From Sphingobium amiense (GTDB lineage Bacteria > Pseudomonadota > Alphaproteobacteria > Sphingomonadales > Sphingomonadaceae): DNA of 64,000 bases. The stretch is from NCBI RefSeq assembly GCF_003967075.1, contig NZ_AP018664.1:124001-188000 (forward strand), written 5' to 3'. The notes beneath the pieces are model-generated. The model did not search any database. It was not told the DNA's origin and was given only the letters and a program-made list of their open reading frames with translations. Position numbers and translations under genes: made by a program. This document shows positions 12,676-35,055 of the stretch, in pieces. The first letter of the stretch is position 1. Every line of letters starts with the position of its first letter.

Positions 12676-12688
12676 TTGACCCTCCAGT

Positions 12689-13612: not shown

Positions 13613-13643
13613 GACGGATATGATATGCGGAGCGATCGCTTGA

Positions 13644-13665
13644 GTATATTCACTGGTCGGTATAC
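13644..13665. promoter_or_regulatory. Candidate TetR operator (GTATA-N12-TATAC)
   Basis: Arms GTATA (13644-13648) and TATAC (13661-13665) form a dyad with a 22-bp span, the usual size for a TetR-dimer site. It sits in the 61-bp gap between the divergent hydrolase and tetR genes, 8 bp before the tetR ATG. It is placed to repress both directions. Confidence 0.5.
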
Positions 13666-13673
13666 ATTGCGGT

Positions 13674-14243
13674 ATGACCAGAACCGATGTGCCCACACGC
13701 GATCGAATTATCGAGGCGGCCGGCAAGCTCTTTCACGCCGAGGGAATCCGCGCCGTCAGCGTCGATGCCGTCGCTGAGAAGGCGGGCCTGACCAAGCGGA
13801 CGCTCTATTACCATTTCCGTAGCAAGGACGATCTGATCGCGGCGTATCTGGAAACGCGAGACCAGCCGAACCTTGCGCTGTTCCAGCGCTGGTTCACTGA
13901 AACGGTGGGCAGCACGGCCGACAAGGTGCAAGGCATCTTTTGCAATCTTGCGGCTTCCGCACGGCATCCGAAATGGAAGGGCTGTGGGTTCCTGCGGACA
14001 TCGGTTGAGCTGATCCACCTGCCGGGGCACCCTGCGATCCTTGCAGGACGCACGCACAAGAAGCGCGTAGAGGACTGGCTGTGCTCGCTGTTTGCAGATG
14101 TGCGCCCACCAGACGAGGCCCGGCGTCTTGCGCGCCAGATCATCCTTCTGCTCGACGGGGCATTTGCCGTCGTGCTGCTTCATCGAGACCCGAGTTATAT
14201 GGAGAGTGCTGGTGAGGCAGCGGCGCAGTTGGTCCGAGGTTAG
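13674..14243 (+). CDS. TetR-family transcriptional regulator
   Basis: A 189-residue repressor. The N-terminal HTH (about residues 10-55) runs RDRIIEAAGKLFHAEGIRAV, then SVDAVAEKAGLTKRTLYYHF, a textbook TetR DNA-binding domain. The C-terminal ligand/dimer domain contains KWKGCGFLRTSVEL, seen in several regulators of stress- or xenobiotic-linked hydrolases. It is divergent from the hydrolase-GST pair with a dyad between. Its last 4 bp overlap, tail to tail, the stop of the lipoprotein gene on the other strand. Confidence 0.9.
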   Translation: MTRTDVPTRDRIIEAAGKLFHAEGIRAVSVDAVAEKAGLTKRTLYYHFRSKDDLIAAYLETRDQPNLALFQRWFTETVGSTADKVQGIFCNLAASARHPKWKGCGFLRTSVELIHLPGHPAILAGRTHKKRVEDWLCSLFADVRPPDEARRLARQIILLLDGAFAVVLLHRDPSYMESAGEAAAQLVRG

Positions 14244-14869
14244 TGCACAACCTCACACCATTCCAGGATCTGGAGCGTATAGTGCGATACGGCCCGATCG
14301 AACGCGGAAGTGATGGCTGACTGGCTGCTGGCGGATGCGCGCTCATCGACCGTGAAGCGGCGGCTTGCGATCGGTTGAAGACTGGCGGAATCGACAAGGG
14401 TGGCTGAGCCGCTCACTCTTATCGTCGGAGCGTCGGATTTTTGGGCGTTTCCGCGATAATCCGCTTCGAAACGATCTATCGTCAGGTGCAGGAGCGGGGC
14501 GCCGTTGCCCCGGGCGGCAGCGGGCAGGAGGCGAACAGAAGAGGTCGCCTGTTCGAAACGGCGCATCACCGCCTGGGTGAACAGGTCCGGTGCTGGCGCA
14601 ACCCAGCGCGCATCCTTGATATAGAGGACGGTGTCGCCATGAGCCGTCAATATGCGGTCACCGTCGATCTCGGGAGCGAACCGGACGCGCCCCAGCGTTA
14701 CAGGCTTTTTATCCCGCTCTATTATGGGGGCCTCATGCGCCGGGTCTTCGACGATGCCGAAGCGATAGAGGTTATCGGGCGGTCCGCTTTTCAGAACGGA
14801 GACACAACCGGCCAGCGGCAGGACAGCGGTCATGATCGCGATCCTGGCTCCACGCGTAAAACACATCAT
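14240..14869 (-). CDS. ABC-type transport auxiliary lipoprotein (PqiC/YmbA-like) of the Mla-type system
   Basis: A 209-residue protein with a lipoprotein signal (lipobox LPLAGC, Cys about residue 22). The PF03886-like auxiliary domain follows (PVTLGRVRFAPEIDG, then WVAPAPDLFTQAVMRRFEQ). It is likely an outer-membrane lipoprotein completing the phospholipid-transport ABC system encoded just upstream. It is the last gene of the long pha-to-mla run and overlaps mlaD by 4 bp. In many alphaproteobacteria this lipoprotein ends an mlaEFD operon, so the context strongly supports the call. Confidence 0.85.
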   Translation of the reverse strand: MMCFTRGARIAIMTAVLPLAGCVSVLKSGPPDNLYRFGIVEDPAHEAPIIERDKKPVTLGRVRFAPEIDGDRILTAHGDTVLYIKDARWVAPAPDLFTQAVMRRFEQATSSVRLLPAAARGNGAPLLHLTIDRFEADYRGNAQKSDAPTIRVSGSATLVDSASLQPIASRRFTVDERASASSQSAITSAFDRAVSHYTLQILEWCEVVH

Positions 14870-15804
14870 CGGGGTAGCTCCAGTTCCTGTCCACTGTCCT
14901 TGGTGAGCGCACGGCGCGGATTCTGGCGTATTTCGCGCAAGAACCCATCGAGCGATTCGGATGTCTCCTGCAGGCTATGCATCGCGGCATTGACGGCGGG
15001 GAGGGTGGTCGTTCCGATTGTCTCGCTTTGCCGGTTGATATGGGCGAGGGTGCCGCGCGCTTCGCCGATTGCGGCCTTGAGCTCGGTCGCCGCCTCCGAC
15101 ATCTCCGCGAGTGTCCGGCGTCCGTCTCCCTCGCCCATTTCCCGAATGAGCGCCGCTGACGCTTCGATATCGGTGGCAGCGGAATCGAGTTTTGCCAGCA
15201 TGGACCCGGCATGATCGAACATGGCGCGATTCTCGGCGAGCTCGCCCATGGTGAGACGTACATCCTTTATCGTCGCGCTCAGATCGGCGATGTTCTCGTC
15301 CGAGATGAGCTTGTTGACCTGGTTGAGCGCCCTGGTCGCGCTTTCGACCATCTGGCCGCCGCCCTGAATCAGCGACGACATGGCGTTCGGCTTGCTTCGA
15401 ATAACAGGCCGGTGGGAGCGCTCGGCCTCGCGCAGGAGAGGCTGTTGCGGATCGCCCGCGCTGATCTGGACGATACTCGTGCCGGAAATGCCTTGCGTTT
15501 CGGTGGATGCCAGAGAATCGCGGCGAACCGGCGTGCGTGCCTGCAGGGATATGTCGGTGATTACCCGGTTGGGATTGTCTTCGTCGAGCCTGATCCGTTC
15601 GATCTGACCCATCTTGATACCGTTGAACTGGACATCCCCGCCCACGCTGAGGCCGCGAACAGGGCCCTCGAAGATGATCCTGTATCGGTCATATTCATTG
15701 CTGAAACGCGATCCGCCCAGCCATACGACAAACACCACGCCGGCAATCAGCAGCAGTGTCGAGATGGCGCCTACCAGCGCGTAATTGGCCTGCCGTTCCA
15801 TCAA
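14866..15804 (-). CDS. mlaD: MlaD-type MCE protein, phospholipid-transport substrate-binding subunit
   Basis: A 312-residue protein. One N-terminal membrane helix (about residues 8-30, ALVGAISTLLLIAGVVFVVW) is followed by the MCE domain (RIIFEGPVRGLSVGGDVQFN). A long helical C-terminal region (roughly 130-300) is rich in Ala, Glu and Thr, as in MCE proteins that form hexameric lipid channels in the periplasm. It hands phospholipids to or from the MlaE permease. Overlaps of 4 bp on both sides indicate coupled translation with mlaF and the lipoprotein. Confidence 0.88.
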   Translation of the reverse strand: MMERQANYALVGAISTLLLIAGVVFVVWLGGSRFSNEYDRYRIIFEGPVRGLSVGGDVQFNGIKMGQIERIRLDEDNPNRVITDISLQARTPVRRDSLASTETQGISGTSIVQISAGDPQQPLLREAERSHRPVIRSKPNAMSSLIQGGGQMVESATRALNQVNKLISDENIADLSATIKDVRLTMGELAENRAMFDHAGSMLAKLDSAATDIEASAALIREMGEGDGRRTLAEMSEAATELKAAIGEARGTLAHINRQSETIGTTTLPAVNAAMHSLQETSESLDGFLREIRQNPRRALTKDSGQELELPR

Positions 15805-16589
15805 ATGCTATCCTGCTGTTCTGCCGCAGCGCGGCCGCGCGGCCCAAGGAAATAATCCCTGATCCAGGGATGATCCGATTGCTCCAGCTCGTGAAGCGGG
15901 GCCGTGGTCACGATTTTTCGATCGGCGATGACGGCGACCCGATCACAGACCGCGTACAGCGTGTCGAGATCGTGGGTAATCATGAAGACCGTGAGGCCCA
16001 GCGTATCGCGCAGATCGCGGATGAGCGCGTCGAATTCTGCGGCGCCGATCGGGTCGAGACCTGCGGTGGGTTCATCGAGAAACAATATGTCGGGATCAAG
16101 TGCGATCGCCCTTGCAACGCCAGCGCGCTTGCGCATGCCGCCCGACAGTTCGGCCGGACGAAGATCGGCGGCATGGGCGGGAAGGCCGGCAAGCCTGATC
16201 TTGAGGCGCGCCGCTTCGCGCATGAACCCCGGCGCGAGGCGGGTATGCTCCAGCATCGGAGCCTCGACATTCTGAAGCACGGTCAGGAAGGAAAAGAGCG
16301 CGCCCTGCTGGAACATGACGCCGATGCGCCGTTGAACATCGCCCTGCGACCGGCCCATATCCTCACCGAAAACTTCCACGTGTCCGGCGTCGGGCTGCTG
16401 AAGGCCAAGAATAGTGTTCAGAAGGACCGACTTGCCCGATCCAGAGCCGCCGACCACGCCCAGTATTTCACCACGCCTGACTTCGAGATCAAGATTGTCG
16501 TGAATGACCTTGTCACCAAATGCGGTGCGCAGACCGGTCACCCGGATCGCGAGCGGATCGGCCAGACCGTTGTTCACGGACCCGCTCAC
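15801..16589 (-). CDS. mlaF: MlaF-type ABC transporter ATP-binding protein
   Basis: About 262 residues from the GTG at 16589, which overlaps the mlaE stop as GTGA; the longer open frame to 16724 lies inside mlaE and is rejected. Walker A is GGSGSGKS (residues 47-54), followed by Q-loop MFQQGALFSFLTVLQNV, signature LSGGMRKRAGVARAIA, Walker B DILFLDEPTAGLDP and switch TVFMITHDLD. It closely follows the MlaF pattern. It powers phospholipid movement by MlaE/MlaD at the inner membrane. Confidence 0.9.
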   Translation of the reverse strand: MSGSVNNGLADPLAIRVTGLRTAFGDKVIHDNLDLEVRRGEILGVVGGSGSGKSVLLNTILGLQQPDAGHVEVFGEDMGRSQGDVQRRIGVMFQQGALFSFLTVLQNVEAPMLEHTRLAPGFMREAARLKIRLAGLPAHAADLRPAELSGGMRKRAGVARAIALDPDILFLDEPTAGLDPIGAAEFDALIRDLRDTLGLTVFMITHDLDTLYAVCDRVAVIADRKIVTTAPLHELEQSDHPWIRDYFLGPRGRAAAEQQDSI

Positions 16590-17695
16590 AGGCCGAGCAC
16601 CATGAAGATCACCGCAAAGATGGCATCGAACATGATAATGAGGAAAACAGACTGGACCACTGCGGACGTCACATGACGGCCCAGACTCTGGACGTCTCCT
16701 CCCACCATCATTCCATGGCGGCACCCCGCGGCAGCGATCAGCAGGGCGAGGAACGGGGCCTTGCCCATGCCGATCCAGAAATGCTTGATACTGACGGTTT
16801 CCGCGAGACGGGTGACGAAGAAGGAGGGGCTGATGTCGATGGTGGCCCAGCTTACGAGAAGCCCTCCCAGGAGTCCGCCCAGGTCGCCCACGAACGTCAT
16901 GAGCGGAATCATGACGAGCGCGGCGAGGATACGGGGCGTGACGAGGGCATCGAACCGGTCGACACCCATGACCTGCATGGCGGCCACTTCCTGGTTCATC
17001 CGCATGGAGCCGATTTGTGCCGCGAAGGCAGAGGCCGAGCGGCCCGCCAGAAGAATAGCGGCGATGACGACGCCAAACTCCCTGAGGATTGCGACGCCCA
17101 CAAGTTCGACGGTAAAAATCTCCACTCCGAGGCTGGTGAGGAGATTGGTGCCGACCAGTGCGATGATCGCACCGATGAAAAACGTCATGATGAAAACGAT
17201 CGGCAAGGCATTGATGCCTGATTCTTGCATGACAGCGAATAGCGGTGTGACCCGCAATCGCCTGGGGCGTAACAATGTGCCTCCAAGAGCAAGGATCATC
17301 TGACCGGTGAAAACCAGCATCGCATAGGCGTCGTGAGCGATTTCAATGATCTGCTGGCCGAAGCGCGCGAAGAACCCGGTCAGGTAGCCACGGGGGGGCG
17401 GGCTATCCTCGTGAGGCGTCATGCCCGGCGCAACGAGGTTGGCCAGACGTCGCACATCGTCACGTGTGCCGAACAGGATCTCGCCGTCGGTGGGCATCAG
17501 TTTAAGGAGCAGCAAGGCGCCGGTCGTGTCGATCCTCCCGAGGGCGGAGACGTCGATCCTGTTCGCCTGCTGTCCTCCCACAGCCGGCAGCGGCTGACGG
17601 CTCGCCTGGTCAAGGGTCAGGGCCGTCCAGTCGCCCTCGGCGTGGAGGGTCAAGGAACCGTCTTCTTCAACCAGCGTCCATGTCGCCGCCTTCAT
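16586..17695 (-). CDS. mlaE: MlaE-type permease with N-terminal STAS domain
   Basis: A 369-residue protein. An N-terminal STAS-like region (about 1-100; VSALGRIDTTGALLLLKLM) is followed by the MlaE permease domain with five or so membrane helices and motifs VVIAAILLAGRSASAFAAQI and IGSMRMNQEVAAMQVMGVD. STAS fused to MlaE is common in alphaproteobacteria, where it replaces the separate MlaB. It forms the inner-membrane core of the phospholipid transporter. It overlaps pldA by 4 bp upstream and mlaF by 4 bp downstream. Confidence 0.9.
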   Translation of the reverse strand: MKAATWTLVEEDGSLTLHAEGDWTALTLDQASRQPLPAVGGQQANRIDVSALGRIDTTGALLLLKLMPTDGEILFGTRDDVRRLANLVAPGMTPHEDSPPPRGYLTGFFARFGQQIIEIAHDAYAMLVFTGQMILALGGTLLRPRRLRVTPLFAVMQESGINALPIVFIMTFFIGAIIALVGTNLLTSLGVEIFTVELVGVAILREFGVVIAAILLAGRSASAFAAQIGSMRMNQEVAAMQVMGVDRFDALVTPRILAALVMIPLMTFVGDLGGLLGGLLVSWATIDISPSFFVTRLAETVSIKHFWIGMGKAPFLALLIAAAGCRHGMMVGGDVQSLGRHVTSAVVQSVFLIIMFDAIFAVIFMVLGL

Positions 17696-18909
17696 CGGAT
17701 CAGCGCGATCCCGACGCGCAGACGCCTGGTGTTTCGATCATAGTCGAGGAGGTTTTCTCCATATCCGATGAAGCTCTGACCGAAGAGGTAGAAGTCCGGC
17801 CCGCCGCCCAGGATACGGCGGAGCGGATAGGACAGGTCGGCGGACAGCGCGCCCTTTCCGCTGCCGATATTGAAGCGGGTGGAGGTGGAGAGGCGCAGTC
17901 CATTATCCTCCCCGACCTCCATAAAAAGACCGGTGTTGCCGCGATACCGGCGTATGTCGGGATTGTCGGACTTGTCCCCGACGAAGAGGGAGAGGCGCGG
18001 CGCGATAGAGAGGCGATAGCCGCCGCCCAGCGGAATGGCGGCCATGGGCGCCAGATAGATGCTGTTGATGCTCCGCGAGGCCTCGCCGTCCCGGCCGTTG
18101 GACTCGTGCCGGATGCCACCCTGTGCGCTCAGGGACACGCCGCTCGCCAGTGTGGTCGAGGGCGTAAGATAGAATATCTCGGGCTGGAAATCGATGTTCC
18201 GGAAAGGCGAGGAGTCCGCGCCCAGATCCCAGAACATGCGCTGCGTGTAGGCGAAATGGAGTCCATCGCGCCAGCTTTGCGGGAGACCTTCCGCGCGGCG
18301 GCTTCCGAACAACTGATATTTGAAGCTGAGCTGGATCCGGGCTTCGCTGTTGGTGTCCGGACCATAGACCGCATAAATGGGTTCGTAGCCGGACAGGTTG
18401 GCGAGGAAGGCGTTGCCCGCCCTGCGATCCGAAGGCGGCGGTGTGGGAGCAGGGGCTCGCACAGGCGGAACCGGCGCAGGCGTGTGCGCCTCGGCGAGAT
18501 GCGATGCCGGCGCCGCAGGGCGCGGTATCATGGCGATCTGGCTGACGTTCCAGGCGGGGATGGAAAGCCGGGCCAGGTCCAGGGATTGCCCATCACGGGC
18601 TGCCAGGCGGTAGCGGGCGCGCTCGAATCCGCGGGGCGCTATGATCACATGGTCCGCCACATCGCGGGCGCGCTCGAGCCAGACCGTCCGGATATCTCCC
18701 GACCGTTCGACCCGGGCCTCGATCCGATCAGGGAGCGCGAAGCTCTGCGGTTCATCGCCCTCGTTCAGCAAGCGCAGATCGACGAGCAAAGCGCCCTCTG
18801 CATCCTGTTCGCCCGCGTCCCGGACGAGCACCGCTACCGGCGCTGCCTGCGCCGCGGCGGGCACAAGGAGCGCTGTCGCCAGCAACCATCGGATAGACCG
18901 GTCCATCAT
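17692..18909 (-). CDS. pldA: Outer-membrane phospholipase A (PldA)
   Basis: A 405-residue protein with a cleavable signal (about residues 1-22, ending AAAQA), a proline-rich linker (about 130-160), then a beta-barrel. The OMPLA active-site strand is visible: GGIRHESNGRDGEASRSIN gives His268, Ser270 and, 14 residues after the His, Asn282. These match the His142/Ser144/Asn156 spacing of E. coli PldA. It hydrolyses phospholipids misplaced in the outer leaflet. Next to an Mla-type transporter it makes one outer-membrane lipid-asymmetry module. Extra N-terminal residues (about 100 more than E. coli) have no assigned role. It overlaps fabI and mlaE by 4 bp each. Confidence 0.88.
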   Translation of the reverse strand: MMDRSIRWLLATALLVPAAAQAAPVAVLVRDAGEQDAEGALLVDLRLLNEGDEPQSFALPDRIEARVERSGDIRTVWLERARDVADHVIIAPRGFERARYRLAARDGQSLDLARLSIPAWNVSQIAMIPRPAAPASHLAEAHTPAPVPPVRAPAPTPPPSDRRAGNAFLANLSGYEPIYAVYGPDTNSEARIQLSFKYQLFGSRRAEGLPQSWRDGLHFAYTQRMFWDLGADSSPFRNIDFQPEIFYLTPSTTLASGVSLSAQGGIRHESNGRDGEASRSINSIYLAPMAAIPLGGGYRLSIAPRLSLFVGDKSDNPDIRRYRGNTGLFMEVGEDNGLRLSTSTRFNIGSGKGALSADLSYPLRRILGGGPDFYLFGQSFIGYGENLLDYDRNTRRLRVGIALIR

Positions 18910-19679
18910 GCGAGAAGGTGCTGTCCGCCATCGACCGGGATCACCGTTCCGGTGATCCGGCTGGCTGCGTCACTGACGAGGAAGGCAGCCAGCCCGCCGA
19001 CATCCTCTATCGTCACCAACTGGCCGACCGGCGTCTGGGCGGCGGCGCGCTCGAGCAATTCATCGAACCGCGCGATGCCACTGGCGGCGCGGGTGGCGAT
19101 AGGGCCCGGCGATATCGCATGGGCGCGGATGCCCTGGGGGCCCAGTTCGGCGGCGATATAGCGCGTCGCGCTCTCCAGCGCCGCCTTGACCGGTCCCATG
19201 AGGTTGTAGTTTTCAACGACGCGCTCCGAGCCGTAGAAGGTGACGCAGAGCAGGCAGCCGCCTTGCGCCATCAAGGGCTCGGCCAGCTTCGCCATGCGAA
19301 GGAAGCTGTGGCAGGAGACGTCCATCGCGATGCCGAACCCCTCGGCGCTGCTGTCGACGACGCGGCCATGGAGATCGTCGCGGGGTGCGAAGGCGATCGA
19401 ATGCAGCAGGAAGTCGAGTCCGCCCCATCGGTCCCGCACCTGGTCGAACAGGGCCTCGAGCTGGCCGGGCTCACGCACATCGCAGGGGGCGAGCCATTCG
19501 GCGCCCAGCCGGTCCGCCACCGGCTCGACCCAGCCTTTCGCCTTCTCGTTCAGATAGGTCGCGGCAAGGCGCGCGCCGCAGCGGCTGAAAGCCTCGGCGC
19601 AGCCCGCTGCAATGCTCTGTTCGTTGGCGATACCGACGATCAGGCCACGCTTGCCGCGAAGATCGACGAGGGGGGTCAT
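18906..19679 (-). CDS. fabI: Enoyl-[acyl-carrier-protein] reductase FabI
   Basis: A 257-residue short-chain dehydrogenase-like enzyme. GLIVGIANEQSIAAGCA (about 12-28) is the NADH-binding glycine pattern of FabI, and LLHSIAFAPRDDLHG is a FabI-type strand. The active site is Tyr149, Tyr158 and Lys165 (Y-x6-K), equivalent to Tyr146/Tyr156/Lys163 of E. coli. It performs the last reduction of fatty acid elongation. It sits between ackA and pldA with 4-bp overlaps, a placement known in other proteobacterial pta-ackA-fabI clusters linked to storage-polymer genes. It is probably an extra copy beside the chromosomal one. Confidence 0.9.
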   Translation of the reverse strand: MTPLVDLRGKRGLIVGIANEQSIAAGCAEAFSRCGARLAATYLNEKAKGWVEPVADRLGAEWLAPCDVREPGQLEALFDQVRDRWGGLDFLLHSIAFAPRDDLHGRVVDSSAEGFGIAMDVSCHSFLRMAKLAEPLMAQGGCLLCVTFYGSERVVENYNLMGPVKAALESATRYIAAELGPQGIRAHAISPGPIATRAASGIARFDELLERAAAQTPVGQLVTIEDVGGLAAFLVSDAASRITGTVIPVDGGQHLLA

Positions 19680-20866
19680 GTTTTAACTCCAAAAAGGGTG
19701 GCCAGTGTCTGCAGGACGATCATCCGTTCTTCGTCCGTCGGGATGACGCGGACGGTAATGGGGCTGCCAGGCGCGCTGATGACGTCGGCATGGACGGCAT
19801 TGGCCCGCTCATCGAGGCTGATGTCGAGCCATGCGAGGCGCTCGCAGATGCCCGCGCGGATGGCGGCGTCGTTCTCGCCGATGCCGGCCGTGAAGACGAG
19901 ACCGTCAAGGCCGCCCAGCGATGACGCCAGCGCGCCGGCCTCGCGCGCGGCACGCCAGATGAAGAGGTCGATGGCCTCGCGGGCTTCGGGCCGGTCGCTG
20001 GCCGCAAGCTCACGCATGTCGCTCGAGATGCCTGATACGCCCAGCAGGCCCGATTGCTTGTAGAGCAGCGCCTCCACATCGGCGGCGCTCATGCCCACCC
20101 GGTTCTGGAGATGCAGGATGACGCCAGGGTCGATCGACCCGCAGCGCGTGCCCATCATCAGGCCGTCGAGCGCGGTGAAACCCATCGTCGTGTCGATGCT
20201 CTTGCCGCCTGACATGGCGCACAGGCTTGCGCCGTTGCCCAGATGCGCGGCGATCACGCGGCCGGCGGCAAGCGATGGGTCGAGCTCTGCCAGGCGGCGG
20301 GCGATATAGTCGTAGGAGAGGCCATGGAAGCCGTAGCGCCTGATGCCCTGCTCGTGAAGTGCGCGCGGGAGCGCGAAGCGGGTGGCGGGTGCGGGGCGAT
20401 CATGGTGGAAGGCGGTGTCGAAGCAGGCGACCTGGGGAAGGTCCGGCGCGAGCGCGGCGATCGCGCGGATGGCAGCCAGATTATGGGGCTGGTGGAGCGG
20501 GGCCAGTGGACAGAGCTTCTCAAGCTCCTCGAGCACTATGGTATCGATCAGGCACGACTGGGCGAAGTCGACCCCGCCGTGGACGACGCGGTGCCCGACG
20601 GCGAGGACTTCGCGCCCTTCGAGATGCGATGTGGCCCAGTCAAACAACCATGCGAGCAACTCTGCATGGGTCATGGCGCGTTCGTCGGGCCACTCGCGTT
20701 CGATCAGCACTGTGCCTGCTGCGTCGCGAATGGCGAGGCGGGGAGAAAGACCGATCCGTTCGATCTTGCCGCCGGCGGACAATGTCGGTTTGCGGTCGCG
20801 ATCGAGCGTATAGAGCGCGAACTTGATGCTGGACGAGCCCGAATTGAGGCTGACGACGGCCTTCAT
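19676..20866 (-). CDS. ackA: Acetate kinase
   Basis: A 396-residue acetokinase starting at the ATG at 20866; the longer open frame to 21220 lies inside the upstream gene. VVSLNSGSSSIKFALY (residues 4-19) is the N-terminal signature with the phosphate-binding Asn and Ser residues. YGFHGLSYDYIARRL is the second signature, and GLVFTAGIGENDAAIRA the adenine-site motif. It interconverts acetate plus ATP with acetyl phosphate plus ADP. With the Pta-type partner upstream (4-bp overlap) it forms the acetate overflow/assimilation route next to the PHB genes. Confidence 0.93.
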   Translation of the reverse strand: MKAVVSLNSGSSSIKFALYTLDRDRKPTLSAGGKIERIGLSPRLAIRDAAGTVLIEREWPDERAMTHAELLAWLFDWATSHLEGREVLAVGHRVVHGGVDFAQSCLIDTIVLEELEKLCPLAPLHQPHNLAAIRAIAALAPDLPQVACFDTAFHHDRPAPATRFALPRALHEQGIRRYGFHGLSYDYIARRLAELDPSLAAGRVIAAHLGNGASLCAMSGGKSIDTTMGFTALDGLMMGTRCGSIDPGVILHLQNRVGMSAADVEALLYKQSGLLGVSGISSDMRELAASDRPEAREAIDLFIWRAAREAGALASSLGGLDGLVFTAGIGENDAAIRAGICERLAWLDISLDERANAVHADVISAPGSPITVRVIPTDEERMIVLQTLATLFGVKT

Positions 20867-22284
20867 GTGCGCATACCCTCCGGCAGGCCGGGCGCCGCCT
20901 TGGTCGCCGCGCGCGCTACCAGCACGGCAACGGCGCAGGAAGCAAGGCGCGTGCGCAGGCTGTCGGCCCGGCTGGTGAGGATGATCGGCACACGCGCACC
21001 CAGCACGATGCCTGCCGCATCCGCCCCGCCGAGGAAGGTGAGCTGCTTGGCGAGCATGTTGCCCGCCTCCAGATCGGGTACGACCAATATGTCCGCCTTG
21101 CCCGCGACGGGCGACACGATCCCTTTTTCCTTCGCGGCCGCCTCGCTGATCGCATTGTCGAAGGCGAGCGGGCCATCGAGGAGGCCGCCCGTGATCTGGC
21201 CCCGGTCGGCCATCTTGCACAGCGCGGCAGCATCGAGCGTGGTCGGCATCGCCGGGTTCACCGTCTCGACAGCGGACAGGATCGCGACCCTGGGTTGGCC
21301 GATGTCCAGCACATGGGCAAGATCGATGGCGTTGCGGATGATATCCGCCTTTTCTTCAAGGTTCGGCGCGATGTTGATCGCCGCGTCGGTGATGATGAGC
21401 GGCGTCGGATGGCCGGGCACGTCCATCACATAGGCATGGCTGATCCGCCGTTCGGTACGCAGGCCCGTCGCGCGCGACACGACCGCGCCCATCAATTCGT
21501 CGGTATGCAGCGATCCCTTCATGAGCAGCACCGCCTCGCCGGCCCGCACCAGTTCGACGGCCTTCGCCGCCGAATCATGGCTGTGCGCGCTTTCCACGAT
21601 GCGATAGGCCGCCACATCCTTGCCGGCCTCGGCCGCCGCTGCAAGAATGCGGGCCCTCGGTCCCACCAGGATCGGATCGATCAGCCCTGCCTCGGCGGCC
21701 TCGACCGCTGCCGCCAGCGCGGCGGCCGAACAGGGGTGAGCGATGGCGGTGCGCGCGGGGTTGCCGCGCACGCCCTCGATCAACCGATGATAGCCGTCAT
21801 GGTCTGACAGGCGGATATCGGGGAGCGCGATGCGCGGGCGGCGGATCTTCTCGGTGGGGGCCTTGACCTGCGCTTCGCCGGTGATGACGGTCTCGCCATT
21901 CTGATTGTCGCAGCGGCAGTCGAGCAGCAGGATATGCTTGTCCGCCCGCTTTTCCGTCACCGTCACCGTCGCGGTGATGGCGTCGCCGATGCCCACGGGC
22001 CTCAGGAACCGCAGCGACTGGCCGAGATAGATGGCACCGGGGCCGGGCAGTTCGGTCCCGAGCACCGCCGATATCAGCCCGCCGCCCCACATGCCGTGCG
22101 CGATCACCCGGCGGAAGAAGTCGCTTTCGGCATAATCCTCGTCCAGATGGGCCGGATTGACGTCGCCCGACACCAGCGCGAAGAGCTGGATATCGCGCTT
22201 GGAGAGCGTGCGGGTCACGCTCGCGCTTTCGCCCACGGCGATCTCGTCGAAGGTCCGGTTTTCGATCATGGCCTCATCGGTCAT
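20863..22284 (-). CDS. MaoC-like hydratase fused to phosphate acetyltransferase
   Basis: A 473-residue two-domain protein. Residues about 5-145 form a MaoC hot-dog domain (LFALVSGDVNPAHLDEDYA is the hydratase-2 motif with Asp and His, then HGMWGGGLISAVLG). Residues about 155-470 form a phosphotransacetylase domain (ETVNPAMPTTLDAAALCKMA, and VVPDLEAGNMLAKQLTFLGG near the end). It would move acyl groups between CoA and phosphate and may also hydrate enoyl-CoA to 3-hydroxyacyl-CoA, a PHA precursor. It starts 3 bp after phaC and overlaps ackA by 4 bp. This fusion is a known type in PHA-linked clusters. Confidence 0.9.
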   Translation of the reverse strand: MTDEAMIENRTFDEIAVGESASVTRTLSKRDIQLFALVSGDVNPAHLDEDYAESDFFRRVIAHGMWGGGLISAVLGTELPGPGAIYLGQSLRFLRPVGIGDAITATVTVTEKRADKHILLLDCRCDNQNGETVITGEAQVKAPTEKIRRPRIALPDIRLSDHDGYHRLIEGVRGNPARTAIAHPCSAAALAAAVEAAEAGLIDPILVGPRARILAAAAEAGKDVAAYRIVESAHSHDSAAKAVELVRAGEAVLLMKGSLHTDELMGAVVSRATGLRTERRISHAYVMDVPGHPTPLIITDAAINIAPNLEEKADIIRNAIDLAHVLDIGQPRVAILSAVETVNPAMPTTLDAAALCKMADRGQITGGLLDGPLAFDNAISEAAAKEKGIVSPVAGKADILVVPDLEAGNMLAKQLTFLGGADAAGIVLGARVPIILTSRADSLRTRLASCAVAVLVARAATKAAPGLPEGMRT

Positions 22285-22287
22285 GGC

Positions 22288-24045
22288 TCAGCGCTCCAGG
22301 ACATAATGGCCGGGCGCGTCCGCGATCGGCGCATAGCCTTTGTCCGCGGCGCCCATGGACGGCGGGGCCCCGGGCGCGCCCGAACGGCTTGCAAGCCAGT
22401 CGCCCCATTCGGTCCACCAGGAACCCTGCTTCTTCTCTGCGTGGCGTTCCCATTCCTCCGGATCGTAGGAGAGACCATCGGTTTCGCGCGTCAGCACGCG
22501 GTAGCGCCGGCCGTTGTGGCCCGGTTCCGAGACGATACCGGCATTATGGCCGCCGCTCGTCAGCACGAAGGTGATCTCGGCCCCGGTCAGCAGGTGGATC
22601 TTATGCACCGAATGCCAGGGCGCGACATGATCGCGCTCGGTGCCGACGACGAACAACGGTCTGCGGATCGCCGAGAGCGCGATGGTGCGACCATTGACCT
22701 TGTATTTGCCCTCGGCCAGGTCATCGTCGAGGAACAGGCGCCGCAGATACTGGCTGTGCATGGCATAGGGCATGCGCGTCCCGTCGGCGTTCCAGGCCAT
22801 GAGGTCGTTGAGAGGCGCGCGCTCGCCCATCAGATATTCCGACAGGATGCGCGACCAGACGAGGTCGTTGGATTTGAGGATCTGGAACGCGCCGCCCATC
22901 TGGCCGCTGTCGAGATAGCCCCGGCTCCACATCATCTTTTCGAGGAGATTGAGCTGTCCCTCATCGATGAAGAGGCCCAGTTCGCCCGGTTCGCTGAATT
23001 CGGTCTGCGCCGCGAAAAGCGTCACGCTGGCAAGGCGATCGTCACCCTCGCGCGCCATCGTCGCCGCTGCGATCGAGAGCAGCGTGCCGCCTAGGCAATA
23101 GCCCACGGCATGAACGGCGGGCGCGCCGGTAATCGCGCTCACCGCATCGAGCGCCGCCATCGGCCCGAGTTGCCGATAGGCCTCCATGTCGAGGTCGCGG
23201 TCCTCGCTGTCCGGATTGTGCCAGGAGATCATGAACACGGTGAAGCCCTGGGACGTCAGCCACTGGACGAGGCTGTTCTCGGGCGAGAGGTCGAGGATGT
23301 AATATTTCATGATCCATGCCGGCACGATCAGGATCGGCTCGGGCCGCACCGTGTCGGTGGTGGGGGCGTACTGGATCAGTTCGATGAGGCGGTTGCGATA
23401 GACGACCTTGCCCCTGGCGGTCGCCACCGTCTCCCCCACGCGGAAGGCGTCCGTGCCCGCCGGAGGCAAGCCTCTTACGAGATGCTGCATATCCTCGATC
23501 AGATGGCGGAACCCGTCGACCAGGCATTGGCCGCCGGTCTCGACGATCTTGCGCTGGAGAACCGGGTTGGTCGTAAGGAAGTTGGTCGGCGCAAGGATAT
23601 CGAGCATCTGTCTGGCGGTGAATTCGACCATGTCCTCATGATGGCTGCCGACGCCGCCCACCCCGGTTGTCGCCGCGTGCCACCATTGCTGGTTGAGAAG
23701 GAACGCCTGCGAGAGGAGGTTGAAGGGCGGCTGCTGCCAGGCGGGATCGGCAAAGCGGCGGTCCTGCGGCAGCGGCTCGATCGCGGGCGCCGCGTCGCGG
23801 TCGCCTGCGGATCGGACGGCATAGTCGAAGAGCCGCACATATTTGCGGGCCGCCTTGGCGGTGAGTTGCAGCTGCTTGCCCGGTGCGAAGGCGAGATGAT
23901 GTCCCCAGTCCGAAAAGGCCTGGAGGATGGTGATGGGGGAGAGCCCCGCGGTCATCTGCGCGATCGCGGCGCCCGCGGCCCTGTCGAGGGTTTCGGCGAT
24001 CCCGTCGAGCGGGTCGGGTGCCTGGGGCATGTTCTGGGCGCTCAT
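22288..24045 (-). CDS. phaC: Poly(3-hydroxyalkanoate) synthase, class I type
   Basis: A 585-residue synthase. PHA synthase N-terminal domain (about residues 80-250) then an alpha/beta-hydrolase domain. The lipase-like box is AVGYCLGGTLLS, with Cys317 as nucleophile; later segments TERDHVAPWHSVH (Asp) and TSGGHNAGIVSEPGH (His) complete the triad. It polymerises 3-hydroxyacyl-CoA into storage granules. Length matches class I. It lies downstream of phaB-phaA-lptB and is followed after 3 bp by maoC-pta, so precursor and polymer steps are in one run. Confidence 0.93.
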   Translation of the reverse strand: MSAQNMPQAPDPLDGIAETLDRAAGAAIAQMTAGLSPITILQAFSDWGHHLAFAPGKQLQLTAKAARKYVRLFDYAVRSAGDRDAAPAIEPLPQDRRFADPAWQQPPFNLLSQAFLLNQQWWHAATTGVGGVGSHHEDMVEFTARQMLDILAPTNFLTTNPVLQRKIVETGGQCLVDGFRHLIEDMQHLVRGLPPAGTDAFRVGETVATARGKVVYRNRLIELIQYAPTTDTVRPEPILIVPAWIMKYYILDLSPENSLVQWLTSQGFTVFMISWHNPDSEDRDLDMEAYRQLGPMAALDAVSAITGAPAVHAVGYCLGGTLLSIAAATMAREGDDRLASVTLFAAQTEFSEPGELGLFIDEGQLNLLEKMMWSRGYLDSGQMGGAFQILKSNDLVWSRILSEYLMGERAPLNDLMAWNADGTRMPYAMHSQYLRRLFLDDDLAEGKYKVNGRTIALSAIRRPLFVVGTERDHVAPWHSVHKIHLLTGAEITFVLTSGGHNAGIVSEPGHNGRRYRVLTRETDGLSYDPEEWERHAEKKQGSWWTEWGDWLASRSGAPGAPPSMGAADKGYAPIADAPGHYVLER

Positions 24046-24159
24046 GATCGGTCCTTTTTGAAGATTTCCATTACAGGGCGGCTACCGGTCGGGCCGTTGC
24101 CCGGGGAGGCAAAGCTGCGGCAAAAGGCCGCTGTCGCCCTTGAGAACAGAGAAAGAAAA

Positions 24160-25017
24160 TCAATCCTCATAATTCTCTCCCAGGTACAGACGACGGACTT
24201 CGTCATGGTGAAGAAGCTCTTGCGGCTTGCCCACGAAAAGCACCTTGCCGCCGTGGATGACATAGGCGCGGTCGACCAGTTCGAGCATCTCATGGACGTT
24301 ATGGTCGGTGATGAGGACGCCGACGCCACGCCTTTTGAGATCGCGGACCATGAGCTTGATGTCCGCGATCGAAATGGGATCGATCCCGGCGAAAGGCTCG
24401 TCGAGCAGGATCACGCCAGGCTCGGCCGCCAGGGCGCGCGCGATCTCGCAGCGCCGCCGCTCGCCGCCGGACAGGGAAGGGGAGGGTGTCGACCGCAGAT
24501 GCGTCAGGCCGAAATCGGCAAGCAGTTCGCCCAGCCGGCGGTCGATGTCGCCAGGGTCGGTCATGCGCAGTTCCAGCACAGAGCGGATGTTGTCCGCAAC
24601 GCTCATCCCGCGAAAGATCGAGGCTTCCTGCGGCAGATAGCCAAGCCCGCGGTTGCCGCGCTCATGCATGGCCAGTGCTGAGACATCTTCGCCGTCGAGC
24701 AGTATACGACCGCCATCGAGGCGTATGAGACCCATGATCCCGTAGAAGCAGATCGTCTTGCCTGTGCCGTTGGGGCCGAGCAGGCCAACGATCTCGCCGC
24801 GATCGACCTCGAGCGAGAAGCCGTCCAGCACCTTTCGCCGTCCGAACGCTTTCTCGATCGCCTGGACTTTGAGCGCGGGCGGGCCGACCACCGACACCGA
24901 CCCGGAGGTGTCCAGCCTGGCGCAGTCAACGCCTTCGCGGCAGGCTGATGGAGTGTCGGCAATGCGGCAGGCGCTGTCATCGAGCATCGTCAGAGGCCCG
25001 GCGCGGCACATTCGCAT
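24160..25017 (-). CDS. lptB: LptB-like ABC transporter ATP-binding protein
   Basis: About 285 residues from the ATG at 25017 (the start is uncertain; residues before about PALKVQAIEKAFG are not part of the ATPase). Walker A GPNGTGKT, Q-loop LPQEASIFRGMSVADNI (a strong LptB pattern), signature LSGGERRRCEIARALA, Walker B GVILLDEPFAGIDP and switch ITDHNVHEML all agree with LptB. LptB powers lipopolysaccharide export with LptFG. None of the other lpt genes are here, so this is either a spare copy or serves another lipid exporter. It lies between phaA and phaC, an unusual place. Confidence 0.82.
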   Translation of the reverse strand: MRMCRAGPLTMLDDSACRIADTPSACREGVDCARLDTSGSVSVVGPPALKVQAIEKAFGRRKVLDGFSLEVDRGEIVGLLGPNGTGKTICFYGIMGLIRLDGGRILLDGEDVSALAMHERGNRGLGYLPQEASIFRGMSVADNIRSVLELRMTDPGDIDRRLGELLADFGLTHLRSTPSPSLSGGERRRCEIARALAAEPGVILLDEPFAGIDPISIADIKLMVRDLKRRGVGVLITDHNVHEMLELVDRAYVIHGGKVLFVGKPQELLHHDEVRRLYLGENYED

Positions 25018-25048
25018 GAGAATCGCCGCCGCGCCGTGCCGCTCGTGA

Positions 25049-26233
25049 TCATGCCATCGCCTCCAGGGCGAGGGCCACGCCCTGGCCGCCGCCGATGCAC
25101 AAGGTGACAACGCCCCGGCGCAGCCCGTCGCGCCGCATCGCATGCAGCAGGCGGGTGGTCAGCACGGCACCGGTCGCCCCGATCGGATGGCCATGCGCGA
25201 TGGCGCCGCCTTCCACATTGACGATGTCCTCAGGGAGGCCGAGTTCCTGCGTGACCGCGATGGCGATGGCCGCGAAAGCCTCGTTGATCTCGACGCGATC
25301 GAGGTCTCCGACCGACCATCCCGCCCGCTCGAGCGCCTGCCGGACGGCGGGCACCGGCCCGAGGCCGAAGAGGCCGGGGGCGACCGCGCCGACACCGAAC
25401 GCGACGAGGCGCCCCAGGGGCGTCACGCCATTGCGCTGCGCCCATTGCTCGTTCGCGACGATCATCGCGGACGCGCCGGTGTTGAGGCCGGGCGCATTGC
25501 CCGCCGTGATGGTGCCTTCCGGTCGGAAGGCAGGCTTTAGACGCGCGAGGCTCTCAAGGCTCGTATCGGCCCGGTTCTGCTCATCTTTTGCAAAGAGCGT
25601 CACAGCCTTGCGAGAAGGAATCTCGACAGGCACGATCTCCGCCTCGAACCGGCCATTGGCCTGGGCCGCGCTGAAACTCTGCTGCGAGCGCAACGCCCAG
25701 CCATCCTGCGCCTCCCGGCTGATGCCGAACTGTGCGACCAGATCCTCGGTGACCCAGCCTGAATGCTGATTGCTGAAGGCGTCATTCAGCCCGTCATGGA
25801 GCATGGCGTCGAGGAGTTTGCCCTCGCCCATACGATAGCCCCAGCGTCCCTTCTCGATGAGATAGGGCGCCTGGTCCATATTCTCCATGCCGCCGGCGAT
25901 CACGGCCTGGCCAAGGCCGAGCATGATCTCCTGGGCGGCCGAGGCGATCGCCTGTGCGCCCGATCCGCAGACCCGGTTGACGGTCATGGCAGGAGCACTG
26001 TCGCGTAACCCCGCGTTGATGGCGGCCTGGCGGGCAGGGTTCATCTTCGCGCCTGCCTGGACCACCTGTCCCATGACGACGCTGTCGATATTGTCAGCGC
26101 CCACGCCCGCGCGCCTGAGCGTTTCGGCGATGGCGACGCTGCCGAGCGCGGGCGCTTTCATGTCCTTGAGCGCGCCGCCATAGGCGCCGATGGGCGTGCG
26201 AACCGGGGCGCACAGAACGACAGGACTGGTCAT
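25049..26233 (-). CDS. phaA: Acetyl-CoA acetyltransferase (beta-ketothiolase)
   Basis: A 394-residue thiolase from the ATG at 26233; the longer open frame overlaps phaB. Active-site features: NRVCGSGAQAIASAAQEIML with the acyl-accepting Cys (about residue 90), NEAFAAIAIAVT with the NEAF motif, GGAIAHGHPIGATGA with the catalytic His, and CIGGGQGVAL with the second Cys. It condenses two acetyl-CoA to acetoacetyl-CoA, the first step of PHB synthesis. It is 23 bp downstream of phaB. Confidence 0.93.
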   Translation of the reverse strand: MTSPVVLCAPVRTPIGAYGGALKDMKAPALGSVAIAETLRRAGVGADNIDSVVMGQVVQAGAKMNPARQAAINAGLRDSAPAMTVNRVCGSGAQAIASAAQEIMLGLGQAVIAGGMENMDQAPYLIEKGRWGYRMGEGKLLDAMLHDGLNDAFSNQHSGWVTEDLVAQFGISREAQDGWALRSQQSFSAAQANGRFEAEIVPVEIPSRKAVTLFAKDEQNRADTSLESLARLKPAFRPEGTITAGNAPGLNTGASAMIVANEQWAQRNGVTPLGRLVAFGVGAVAPGLFGLGPVPAVRQALERAGWSVGDLDRVEINEAFAAIAIAVTQELGLPEDIVNVEGGAIAHGHPIGATGAVLTTRLLHAMRRDGLRRGVVTLCIGGGQGVALALEAMA

Positions 26234-26256
26234 GAGAATAATCCTTCCACGCATTT

Positions 26257-26979
26257 TCAGGCGAGATACTTGCCGCCGTTGATCGAGAGGGTGGCGCCGG
26301 TCACGAAACCGGCCTCGTCCTCGACAAGATAGAGCACGCCGCGCGCGATTTCCTGCGGCGTGCCGAGCCGGCCGACCGGCACCGCGGCCAGCACCGCCTC
26401 GAGCGCGTCCTGCGGCACCGCGGCGACCATGCCGGTATCGGTATAGCCCGGCGCAATCGCATTGACCGTGATGTTTCGAGACGCGCCTTCCAGTGCCAGC
26501 GCCTTGGTGAAGCCGATCACGCCTGCCTTGGCCGCTGCATAGTTGGTCTGGCCAAATTGTCCTGAAAGACCGTTTACCGAGCTGATATTGACGATCCGTC
26601 CGAACCGGCGCTCGCGCATGCCCTCGATCACGGCACGGCACATGTTGAAGCAGCCGCCCAGATCGACGTCGACGACGCTGCGCCATTGCTCCTCGGTCAT
26701 CTTGTGCAACGTGCCGTCGCGCGTGATGCCGGCATTGTTGACCAGAATGTCGATGGGGCCGATGTCTGCCGCAACCTTCGCCACGCCGTCATGACAGGCG
26801 GAGAAATCGGCTACATTCCAGTTGTAGATCGGGATCGAGGTTTCCGCGAGGAATCGCTCGGCATCCTCGTCATTGCCATGATAATTGACGGCAACGCGAT
26901 AGCCTTTGTCGCGGAGGAGCATTGCGGTCGCCGCGCCTATTCCGCTGACGCCGCCGGTAACGAGTGCGACTCTGGGCAT
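26257..26979 (-). CDS. phaB: Acetoacetyl-CoA reductase (first copy)
   Basis: A 240-residue short-chain dehydrogenase. TGGVSGIGAATA is the NADP-binding motif, NNAG is at about residues 85-88, the catalytic Ser is in NISSVNG, and Tyr/Lys in NYAAAKAGVIGFTKAL. The insertion GLSGQFGQTNYAA is typical of PhaB. It reduces acetoacetyl-CoA to (R)-3-hydroxybutyryl-CoA, the PhaC substrate. It is first in the long minus-strand run. A paralogue lies at 28393 on the other strand. Confidence 0.9.
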   Translation of the reverse strand: MPRVALVTGGVSGIGAATAMLLRDKGYRVAVNYHGNDEDAERFLAETSIPIYNWNVADFSACHDGVAKVAADIGPIDILVNNAGITRDGTLHKMTEEQWRSVVDVDLGGCFNMCRAVIEGMRERRFGRIVNISSVNGLSGQFGQTNYAAAKAGVIGFTKALALEGASRNITVNAIAPGYTDTGMVAAVPQDALEAVLAAVPVGRLGTPQEIARGVLYLVEDEAGFVTGATLSINGGKYLA

Positions 26980-27546: not shown

Positions 27547-28257
27547 TCACCTTTTGGGTGCGTGTTGCAATTCAGGTTCGAGGAGCGGAACTGCCCGTGC
27601 CAGCAGATCCATGGTCTGGGCGAGATGTTCGGTCTTGGCCCGAGCTGTGTTGGCAAGATCCTTTCGTAACAATATTCTCGCGCGCGGACCGGTCACCGTT
27701 GCATCGAAGATGAACGCTGCCAGAAAGGGCAGATCCTCTTCTATGTTGCGCACACGCGCCTCCTCCGTCAGCAGATCCTGGATCAATGAGGCGCCGGGGT
27801 TGCGATGAATACTGAGCTGCGCCTCGAGCTTGCGTTCGAAAATCCAGGTCGCGAGTGTCTCGATGCCAATGACCTCGGGTTTGAGCGCAGCGTCGAGCAT
27901 CTTGCGGCAAAGCTTCAGGAGCCGATTGCGTAGGTCTCCTGATCGCCGGTCGACGGTAATCGCTTTGAGATGGCGCTGGGTGCCGTGCTCGGCACGGGCG
28001 ATCAGAAGCTGGGTTTTCGATCCGTAACGCGAATAAAGCGTGCGCTTGGAGACGTTCGCGGCCGCGGCAATGTCATCCATGTTGGCGCCTTCCACCCCAT
28101 GGGCGATGAACTGGTCGAGCGCGACCTGCAATATATGCTCGCCCAATTGCGCGGCTATTTCCTGCGGCGGCCGTCCGCCTTTTGGATCGCGCGGCGCCAG
28201 CTTGTGTCGAGGTGATCGGCGGCTTGTCACCTTTTTGTCATTACCTTCCTTTTTCAT
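27547..28257 (-). CDS. TetR-family regulator of the PHA locus
   Basis: A 236-residue regulator from the ATG at 28257; the longer frame to 28494 overlaps the divergent reductase. A basic N-terminal arm (MKKEGNDKKVTSRRSPRHK) precedes the HTH (ILQVALDQFIAHGVEGANMD, then DIAAAANVSKRTLYSRYGSK). The C-terminal half has FLAAFIFDATVTGPRARILL, a TetR_C-like helix. It lies between the phaB-led run and a divergent reductase-phasin pair, so it is likely to control both according to an acyl-CoA or polymer signal. The signal is inference. Confidence 0.85.
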   Translation of the reverse strand: MKKEGNDKKVTSRRSPRHKLAPRDPKGGRPPQEIAAQLGEHILQVALDQFIAHGVEGANMDDIAAAANVSKRTLYSRYGSKTQLLIARAEHGTQRHLKAITVDRRSGDLRNRLLKLCRKMLDAALKPEVIGIETLATWIFERKLEAQLSIHRNPGASLIQDLLTEEARVRNIEEDLPFLAAFIFDATVTGPRARILLRKDLANTARAKTEHLAQTMDLLARAVPLLEPELQHAPKR

Positions 28258-28314
28258 GCGGGCCAAAGACCGCACTTGATCCGGGGCGGGAAAGCGGCAA
28301 TAACGACACTCATA

Positions 28315-28326
28315 AGTATAGATACT
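28315..28326. promoter_or_regulatory. Candidate TetR operator AGTAT-AG-ATACT
   Basis: Perfect arms AGTAT and ATACT around AG, followed directly by a second small dyad ACTA-A-TAGT. It lies in the 135-bp gap between the divergent tetR and second phaB genes, 58 bp from the tetR ATG. This is the strongest dyad in that gap. Confidence 0.45.
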
Positions 28327-28392: not shown

Positions 28393-29121
28393 ATGACGGG
28401 AATTGCACTCGTAACTGGGGGAACACGTGGAATCGGCGCGGCAATCGCCCGGTCGCTCAAAGCAGCGGGATGGAATGTTGCCAGCATATATCATGGAAAC
28501 GACGCCGCCGCCGAGCTGTTCCGGGATGGTACGGGCATTCCCGTCTATAAATGGGACGTCGCGGAGGAACAGGCCTGCCGCGAAGGCCTGGCCCGCGTGG
28601 AAAAGGAACTGGGCCCGGTTTCAGTGCTGGTGAACAATGCCGGCATCACGCGCGACACCATGTTCCATCGGATGAGCTTTGCGCAGTGGCGCGAGGTTCT
28701 TGGCACCAACCTCGACTCGATGTTCACAATGACGCGCGCCGTCATCGAAGGCATGCGCGAACGCCGCTTTGGCCGGATCATCAATATCTCCTCGATCAAC
28801 GGCCAGAAGGGCCAGATTGGCCAGGTGAACTATTCGGCGGCCAAGGCGGGTGTGATCGGCTTCACCAAGGCGCTGGCGCAGGAAAATGCGTCGCGCGGCA
28901 TCACGGTCAACGCCGTATGCCCCGGCTATATCGACACCGAGATGGTCGCTGCCGTGCCGCAGGATGTCCGCGAAAAGATCATCGGCGGCATTCCCGTCGG
29001 GCGCCTGGGCGATCCGGCTGAAATCGCCGAAGCCGTTTGTTGGCTGGCCTCGGACAAGGCCGGTTTCAATACCGGCTCGGTGCTCACGATCAATGGCGGG
29101 CAATATATCGCCAACGGCTGA
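28393..29121 (+). CDS. phaB: Acetoacetyl-CoA reductase (second copy)
   Basis: A 242-residue short-chain dehydrogenase closely related to the protein at 26257. NADP motif TGGTRGIGAAIA, NNAGITRDTMFHRMS, catalytic Ser in NISSINGQKGQIGQVNYSAAKAG with Tyr and Lys (two adjoining parts), and a C-terminal GGQYIANG. The KGQxGQxNYSAAK pattern is the PhaB fingerprint, stronger here than in the first copy. It pairs with a phasin gene 83 bp downstream. Two copies suggest either dosage or different NADH/NADPH use. Confidence 0.92.
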   Translation: MTGIALVTGGTRGIGAAIARSLKAAGWNVASIYHGNDAAAELFRDGTGIPVYKWDVAEEQACREGLARVEKELGPVSVLVNNAGITRDTMFHRMSFAQWREVLGTNLDSMFTMTRAVIEGMRERRFGRIINISSINGQKGQIGQVNYSAAKAGVIGFTKALAQENASRGITVNAVCPGYIDTEMVAAVPQDVREKIIGGIPVGRLGDPAEIAEAVCWLASDKAGFNTGSVLTINGGQYIANG

Positions 29122-32302: not shown

Positions 32303-32306
32303 GCCG

Positions 32307-35054: not shown

Positions 35055-35055
35055 C

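Follow-up and report, generated by a model that had tools for sequence, protein, structure and literature searches.

A Sphingomonad Gene Run Coupling Polyhydroxybutyrate and Acetyl-Phosphate Genes to Outer-Membrane Lipid Genes

Introduction

Why should genes for storing carbon and genes for handling outer-membrane lipid be coupled in one run? The question is raised by twelve genes on the minus strand of a 64,000-nucleotide stretch of the Sphingobium amiense genome (the window; bases 124001–188000 of a 4.22-Mb contig, in a genome of 4.77 Mb in 7 contigs). Read from 26979 to 14240, they are phaB, phaA, lptB, phaC, a fused maoC-pta, ackA, fabI, pldA, mlaE, mlaF, mlaD, and a lipoprotein gene. An earlier note had described this run as joining polyhydroxybutyrate (PHB) synthesis, acetyl-phosphate metabolism, and fatty acid synthesis to outer-membrane phospholipid recycling, and had suggested a shared function. 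Clusters of phaC-(phaJ/pta)-ack-fabI are already published; what is new is the recurring, coupled addition of PldA, LptB, and an Mpc-type lipid conduit set. Our literature search found no description of the pha-pldA-mla join, most subscription papers lying outside its reach.

Results

All twelve co-oriented genes that the earlier note had listed were uninterrupted frames from start to stop, with clear family matches to Pfam or NCBIfam profiles. The run begins with phaB, an acetoacetyl-CoA reductase gene (26257..26979; TIGR01829, 335 bits against a cut-off of 302), a phaA/bktB-like acetyl-CoA acetyltransferase gene (25049..26233; Thiolase_N and Thiolase_C, with TIGR01930 above cut-off), and an lptB paralogue encoding 275 amino acids from the ATG at 24987 (24160..24987; TIGR04406, 327 bits against 240). 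These are followed by phaC, encoding a class I-type polyhydroxyalkanoate (PHA) synthase with a GYCLGG box (22288..24045; PhaC_N; TIGR01838, 559 bits, under the cut-off of 623), and by maoC-pta, a fused (R)-enoyl-CoA hydratase/phosphate acetyltransferase with the hydratase-2 motif intact (20863..22284; NF006045, 756 bits against 282). The acetate/propionate kinase gene ackA (19676..20866; PF00871, with TIGR00016 above cut-off) and the enoyl-ACP reductase gene fabI (18906..19679; NF005717, 426 bits against 337) come next, as in the published cluster type, where the fused gene also lies between phaC and ackA. The lipid genes close the run: pldA for outer-membrane phospholipase A (17692..18909; PLA1 PF02253 above cut-off, NF008031 below), an mlaE/mpcE-like permease gene (16586..17695; PF02405 above cut-off), an mlaF/mpcF-like ATPase gene with a GTG start (15801..16589; best specific family MlaF NF008809, under cut-off), an mlaD/mpcD-like MCE protein gene (14866..15801; PF02470), and a gene for a PqiC/MpcA-like auxiliary lipoprotein with the lipobox LAGC (14240..14869; PF03886, with matches to PDB 2iqi and 13hr). 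PhaC, PldA, MlaE, and MlaF scored above Pfam cut-offs, yet each fell under the cut-off of a specific NCBIfam model.

The spacing of the genes divides the run in two. From maoC-pta to the lipoprotein gene, six of the seven junctions were 4-bp overlaps. The seventh, mlaF/mlaD, reads TTGATG and overlaps by 1 bp from an ATG start, reaching 4 bp only with a TTG start, so the claim that every one of these junctions is a 4-bp overlap stood for six and fell for mlaF/mlaD. The gap between phaC and maoC-pta was 3 bp, as had been claimed. No overlap was seen at phaB-phaA (23 bp), phaA-lptB (61 bp, with ATG at 24987), or lptB-phaC (114 bp), and the run therefore falls into a phaB-phaA-lptB block and a phaC-to-lipoprotein block. 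These are split by a 1.94-kb insert with a DDE transposase in S. laterariae LNB2, whose locus is identical to window bases 14268–24144. Sphingomonas sp. IC081 carries the second block at the corresponding place without phaB-phaA-lptB.

The join was then sought in other genomes. Among 397 genomes of the family, 59 gave a MaoC-Pta match at E ≤ 1e-80. Core loci, defined as fused MaoC-Pta with both domains at ≥57% identity, numbered 48 by hand count; two ran off their contigs, leaving 46 evaluable. pldA lay directly downstream in 16 of these 46 (12 genomes), a count inflated by near-copies. The mlaEFD-lipoprotein set was present in four of the 46, three times behind pldA and once, at locus L170, behind ackA after a 163-bp gap and without pldA. 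A wider PldA scan with one genome per species (84,980 species) gave 85 relatives, of which 80 loci were retrieved. Across all retrieved loci, the phaC-to-lipoprotein order occurred in six distinct versions: the window with S. laterariae and IC081, L046 (genome G057), L070 (S. arseniciresistens), L074 (S. lactosutens), L075 (Sphingobium sp. TCM1, with a 385-bp gap at pldA-mlaE), and L083 (a Sphingomonas metagenome-assembled genome). Rearranged versions were also found. The mlaEFD-lipoprotein-pldA order occurs without pha genes at L126 (Pacificimonas flava) and L162, the mla set of L126 lying upstream of pldA with no pha genes in view, and pldA is divergent from phaB-phaA-lptB at L048 and L071–L073. 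The earlier note had asked for such a survey and had named uniqueness to this molecule as a ground for refutation; the join is not unique, and its reading withstood that check. Because joins recur and rearranged versions exist, the link is unlikely to be an accident of one genome.

The overlaps recurred with the gene order. Taking the in-frame start closest to −4, and so recording that such a start exists rather than that it is used, we found a 4-bp overlap at 15 of 17 distinct fabI-pldA junctions (13 ATG, 2 GTG), at 3 of 3 distinct ackA-pldA junctions where fabI is absent (2 ATG, 1 TTG), and at 5 of 6 distinct pldA-mlaE junctions (all ATG). Both order and overlaps persisted in loci whose PldA is only about 52–75% identical to that of the window, which places the join beyond chance. 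The earlier proposal of a shared function is likely, since the join is a conserved, coupled, and recurring unit.

Co-occurrence and phylogeny were examined further. A PldA match, fragments included, was present in 22 of 119 family genomes, whilst in the class at large few genomes had a PLA1 gene (3 of 289, counting that of Sphingobium amiense). Fused maoC-pta accompanied pldA in 7 of the 22 pldA genomes vs 5 of 97 others (Fisher p = 0.0013, from a table filled by hand; p = 0.0038 after three short pldA fragments were dropped). On a PldA tree, context labels needed 12 changes; shuffling gave a mean of 26.1, and none of 200 shuffles was as low, a clustering that near-copies help. On an MlaE-F-D tree, one 11-row clade (support 100/99) contained every pha- or pldA-linked set, with partly weak support inside it (84/85). 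Three stand-alone mla sets nest with L170, which suggests a later departure from the operon.

PldA is the gene at which the two arms meet. Its His268, Ser270, and Asn282 align with the His, Ser, and Asn of E. coli OMPLA, which we take to be the catalytic residues of that enzyme, and they were invariant in two alignments, of 16 and of 43 sequences, that both include the window PldA. The catalytic triad named in the earlier note is thus retained. An AlphaFold2 model (mean predicted local distance difference test score, pLDDT, 81.5; predicted template-modelling score 0.57) matched OMPLA structures 1im0 and 1qd5. The match to E. coli OMPLA begins only at residue 216. Residues 26–127 form an extra N-terminal beta domain that has no Pfam match and is present in the aligned sphingomonad PldA proteins, and the linker at 136–165 is of low confidence in the model and probably disordered. 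Oleate hydratase was considered as a neighbour of pldA and rejected: the FAD protein adjoining pldA at L041 is a pyridine nucleotide-disulphide oxidoreductase, the one close to pldA at L042 is fused to a patatin, and the S. laterariae insert was the one place where a partial MCRA/oleate hydratase match was seen. The Sphingobium amiense genome encodes a third PldA, 54% identical, on a 22-kb contig (C6:14578–15753, L044); its gene has a 4-bp overlap with the next open reading frame (ORF), sigma-factor-like by eye, an arrangement also present in Sphingomonas sp. SRS2. On a Thauera humireducens plasmid (L221), PldA overlaps an annotated acyloxyacyl hydrolase gene, followed by a transposase and then an OMF-HlyD-RbbA exporter.

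The four genes behind pldA had been read as mla genes and an auxiliary lipoprotein gene, but the transporter is not a classical Mla system: its layout is that of Mpc, a chimeric Mla-Pqi lipid conduit of Brucella abortus described in 2025 (PMC12436622, in its accessible part), and the genome is without MlaC. PF05494 gave 0 matches in Sphingobium amiense with E. coli and Caulobacter controls matched, nor was MlaC found in G057, a genome with the join; it is present in 29 of 99 family genomes. The permease N-terminus matched STAS_2 weakly (E = 3.9e-4; 21.0 bits, under the curated cut-off of 29.2). PDB matches of the MlaF-like ATPase include the MlaF chains 7ch8_I and 6xbd_I, ranking behind Rv1281c and 6z5u_K. 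The MlaD-like protein has 311 amino acids, and its model (mean pLDDT 59) consists of a transmembrane-like helix (2–36), a beta domain (37–136), and helices at 140–300 that are of low confidence (pLDDT 33–55 per ten-residue block). Residues 1–299 matched the MlaD-domain chain I of PDB 13hr (E = 2.8e-36), an entry that also contains a lipoprotein of the PF03886 family. By analogy, the conduit would move lipid between membranes. Relatives of the Mpc-type permease, 42–43% identical, occur on 15 Klebsiella plasmids. On one of these, pKP187 of Klebsiella variicola (L216), a four-gene Mpc-type set adjoins a cation P-type ATPase and a universal stress protein; the stand-alone conduit relatives at L215 and L217 adjoin an AarF/UbiB-family gene and a second MlaD-family gene.

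With lptB the cluster has a third gene for envelope lipid, one passed over in the reading of the earlier note. Its product carries the Walker A, SGGERRR, DEPFAG, and TDHN motifs. Three LptB proteins in the genome exceed the TIGR04406 cut-off, beside one LptF/LptG pair (two adjacent PF03739 matches) and one LptD. In sphingomonads, a group of soil bacteria, glycosphingolipid replaces lipopolysaccharide (LPS), which agrees with our finding that LpxC was present in 0 of 99 family genomes, with controls including E. coli and Caulobacter matched. The "outer-membrane recycling" of the earlier note is therefore to be read for a probable glycosphingolipid membrane. In E. coli, fatty acids released by PldA enter the cell via FadD, and PldA-derived acyl-CoA stabilises LpxC, according to the accessible part of PMC5874903. 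Since LpxC was absent from all 99 genomes, this PldA-FadD-LpxC signal should not operate here. No paper on Lpt in LPS-less Sphingomonas came up in our literature search.

The surroundings of other core copies give a setting for the operon. Where the core sits on other plasmids of sphingomonads, or on one of Shinella, it is accompanied by universal stress proteins, PAS kinases, response regulators, truncated haemoglobin, and phosphoketolase; these neighbours point to a low-oxygen or energy-stress (dormancy-like) setting. Genes of these types were not seen beside the core copy of the window. On plasmid pSCLO_2 of Sphingobium cloacae (L228), an F0F1 ATP synthase gene set adjoins the phaC-maoC-pta-ackA core.

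The cluster type is mobile. Two further fused maoC-pta loci exist in the Sphingobium amiense genome, one at C1:1.376 Mb, where pldA is present and fabI was not seen, the other at C3:0.12 Mb without pldA. In the C1 copy (C1:1364001–1382746; L043, bases 1–18746), lptB is divergent and the core order is phaC-maoC-pta-ackA-pldA. The stretch around it (12–18.7 kb compared) is 98–99.99% identical to the copy on plasmid pDC02 of R. wittichii and to contigs of Hephaestia, Sphingobium, Sphingomonas, and Novosphingobium. Universal stress protein and phospholipase D genes lie near the C1-type core copy on pDC02. The relatives of the window itself are sphingomonads. Towards its high-coordinate end lie genes for a transposase (43513), a ParB-like protein (45462), a type IV coupling protein (60323), and a TrwC relaxase (62757), and the region is therefore mobile, now or formerly; the conjugation-type genes are 33 kb away from the run.

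Upstream of the run, a TetR-family gene (27547..28257, minus strand; TetR_N) is a possible regulator by inference. Beyond it, a second phaB (28393..29121, plus strand) is divergent and is followed by an ORF without a Pfam match; phaB is divergent to phaC elsewhere too, for example at L173, L174, L179, and on pF1. At 28225–28241 there is a perfect Pho-box-like direct repeat; it falls within the first part of the TetR reading frame and is upstream of the second phaB. Among 12 distinct second-phaB upstream groups, the Pho-box score was 12/12 in two (the window and a near-identical relative), 10/12 in four, and ≤8 in six. Phosphate control through this repeat looked promising at first, but the site is within the TetR frame and is conserved only in part among relatives. 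A consensus scan of 13600–28500 gave 8 promoter-like sites vs 2.8 expected and 11 terminator-like sites vs 7.9 expected. Those within coding sequence on the minus strand of the coupled block (promoter-like 14893–14865; terminator-like 17075, 15871, and 15755) were given no weight, though they may be real. The 200 bp upstream of phaC, taken from 43 distinct regions, contained no FNR-like site. Elsewhere in the window, a YegS-like lipid kinase gene (DAGK_cat; 7687–8601) adjoins a type II NADH dehydrogenase-like gene 5.6 kb past the end of the run. ARAGORN made an odd tRNA-like call with a two-base anticodon at 55525–55620, probably not real.

Discussion

We tentatively read the run as a mobile sphingomonad operon for lean times, in which the handling of surplus acetyl-CoA and the turnover of outer-membrane lipid form one expression unit, and we put this a little short of an even chance. 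Judging from gene families and neighbours, the genes would share a single transcript and would probably be stress-induced. PhaB, PhaA, MaoC, and PhaC would make PHB or PHA as a sink for electrons and carbon. Acetyl-CoA would yield acetate and ATP through Pta and AckA, which might instead run in reverse, and FabI would support new acyl chains. In the lipid arm, PldA would cleave glycerophospholipids reaching the outer leaflet, and lipid would pass from one membrane to the other through the Mpc-type conduit, made up of MlaE with a putative STAS-like domain, MlaF, the extended MlaD, and the PqiC-like lipoprotein. The extra LptB would raise the ATPase capacity available to the single LptF/LptG exporter. 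The pairing of carbon-storage and membrane-lipid genes in several versions suggests, without proving, that two jobs are done together. A more specific scheme is a long shot: in LPS-less sphingomonads, PldA and the Mpc-type conduit would strip glycerophospholipid from the outer membrane, the dedicated LptB would drive an LptFG refill (with glycosphingolipid, for example), the freed acyl and acetyl units would be stored as PHB, and the whole set would move between genera as a stress-survival module.

Several observations weigh against the lean-times operon. No pldA lies downstream in 30 of the 46 evaluable core loci, and 6 of the 16 pldA-linked loci are one near-identical, recently spread mobile element. 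PldA is unlinked to pha/ack or mla in 34 of 64 evaluable distinct sequences, a mixed and partly biased set in which some loci were retrieved via MaoC-Pta or MlaE. Neither arm therefore needs the other. The "core plus mla" label takes 3 changes on the tree of PldA, of which 1 is forced by well-supported branches, and this state may go back to one event. As for a stress setting, a Pfam scan of 39 frames, covering part of the window, showed no universal stress protein or PAS-kinase gene, and no convincing Pho box was found at the window phaB or phaC. FNR-type low-oxygen control was rejected, with no site in the run at ≤1 mismatch and one elsewhere in the window, below chance.

A dedicated salvage route is one alternative, and we consider it unlikely. 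Acyl chains of the outer membrane would be removed by PldA and the Mpc-type conduit and converted to enoyl-CoA by FadD and beta-oxidation; MaoC would form (R)-3-hydroxyacyl-CoA, and PhaC would polymerise it, so that membrane carbon ends in PHB or PHA. The MaoC (R)-hydratase motif and the PhaC active-site box stand in one operon, the active-site residues of PldA are intact, and entry of PldA-released fatty acids through FadD is known from E. coli (PMC5874903, accessible part). However, no acyl-CoA synthetase is among the twelve genes, most core loci do without pldA, FabI indicates fatty acid synthesis rather than degradation, and lipid transport may run in either direction.

A cargo for tolerance of hydrophobic compounds is likewise improbable. 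Here PldA, the Mpc-type set, LptB, and an RbbA-HlyD-outer-membrane exporter would harden the envelope of pollutant-degrading sphingomonads, and the PHB genes would be linked through the same stress unbalancing metabolism. Such an exporter does adjoin the core in the window (outer-membrane efflux protein, HlyD adaptor, RbbA-like ATP-binding cassette protein, and ABC-2 permease by Pfam; 29880..36183) and, by annotation, exporter-like genes do so on pSA2, pDC02, pF1, pSA3, and a Shinella plasmid; unlinked pldA genes lie near efflux-pump genes on pCAR3 and pMC4. The window exporter is on the plus strand, opposite to the run, however, and some core loci have no exporter. A paper on plasmid-driven surface hydrophobicity (PMC10734547) does not mention phospholipase, PHB, or acetate kinase in its accessible part.

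Hitch-hiking, a chance placement of pldA and mlaEFD in a mobile operon from whose promoter alone they profit, would fit the mobility of the cluster type and the insertions and transposases nearby, but is very unlikely given that the 4-bp overlaps survive such divergence of PldA, that several different joins exist with open reading frames, and that, in contrast, no protein family recurs within 4 kb at more than 3 of the 34 unlinked pldA loci.

The lean-times operon would tie carbon storage to outer-membrane lipid turnover in one coupled unit, in a clade without LpxC-based LPS feedback. It offers a concrete, deletable gene set for approaching the asymmetry of an LPS-free outer membrane, the cargo of the Lpt machine, and the feeding of PHB by membrane lipids.

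Comparison with Known Systems

The carbon half of the run has published counterparts, as the earlier note had stated. In the accessible part of PMC8231600, phaC-(phaJ/pta)-ackA-fabI clusters are described in Burkholderia groups D1/D2 and proposed to serve acetate use and PHA synthesis, and Sinorhizobium meliloti has a PhoB-regulated orf-pta-ack-fabI operon. The window shares with them the core genes, their order, and the fused hydratase/phosphate acetyltransferase. It differs in its lipid genes: that part of the paper mentions no pldA, mla/mpc, or lptB.

A looser parallel is the low-oxygen-activated (lxa) locus of Burkholderia cenocepacia. This locus reportedly contains phaC, pta, and ack. A term search of the accessible text of the lxa paper (PMC6127331) gave no match for acetate kinase or phosphate acetyltransferase. 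The locus does have, on the same partial source, universal stress proteins and a BON-domain gene, as are found near some sphingomonad cores.

For the lipid half, the E. coli Mla system consists of MlaFEDB, MlaC, and MlaA. The window has homologues of MlaE, MlaF, and MlaD; unlike E. coli, its genome is without MlaC, a putative STAS-like domain sits on the permease, and there is an additional lipoprotein. E. coli OMPLA shares the barrel fold and the aligned His, Ser, and Asn with the window PldA, whereas the latter has about 150 additional N-terminal residues with a beta domain and shares its operon with PHB genes. The Mpc conduit of Brucella abortus, as set out in the accessible part of PMC12436622, has the same four genes in the order permease, ATPase, MCE protein, and lipoprotein. 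By layout, the two sets are also alike in the long helical C-terminus of the MCE protein, the PqiC-like lipoprotein, and, going by the weak STAS_2 match, probably the STAS-like permease N-terminus. The window set differs from Mpc in being coupled to pldA and to a PHB operon.

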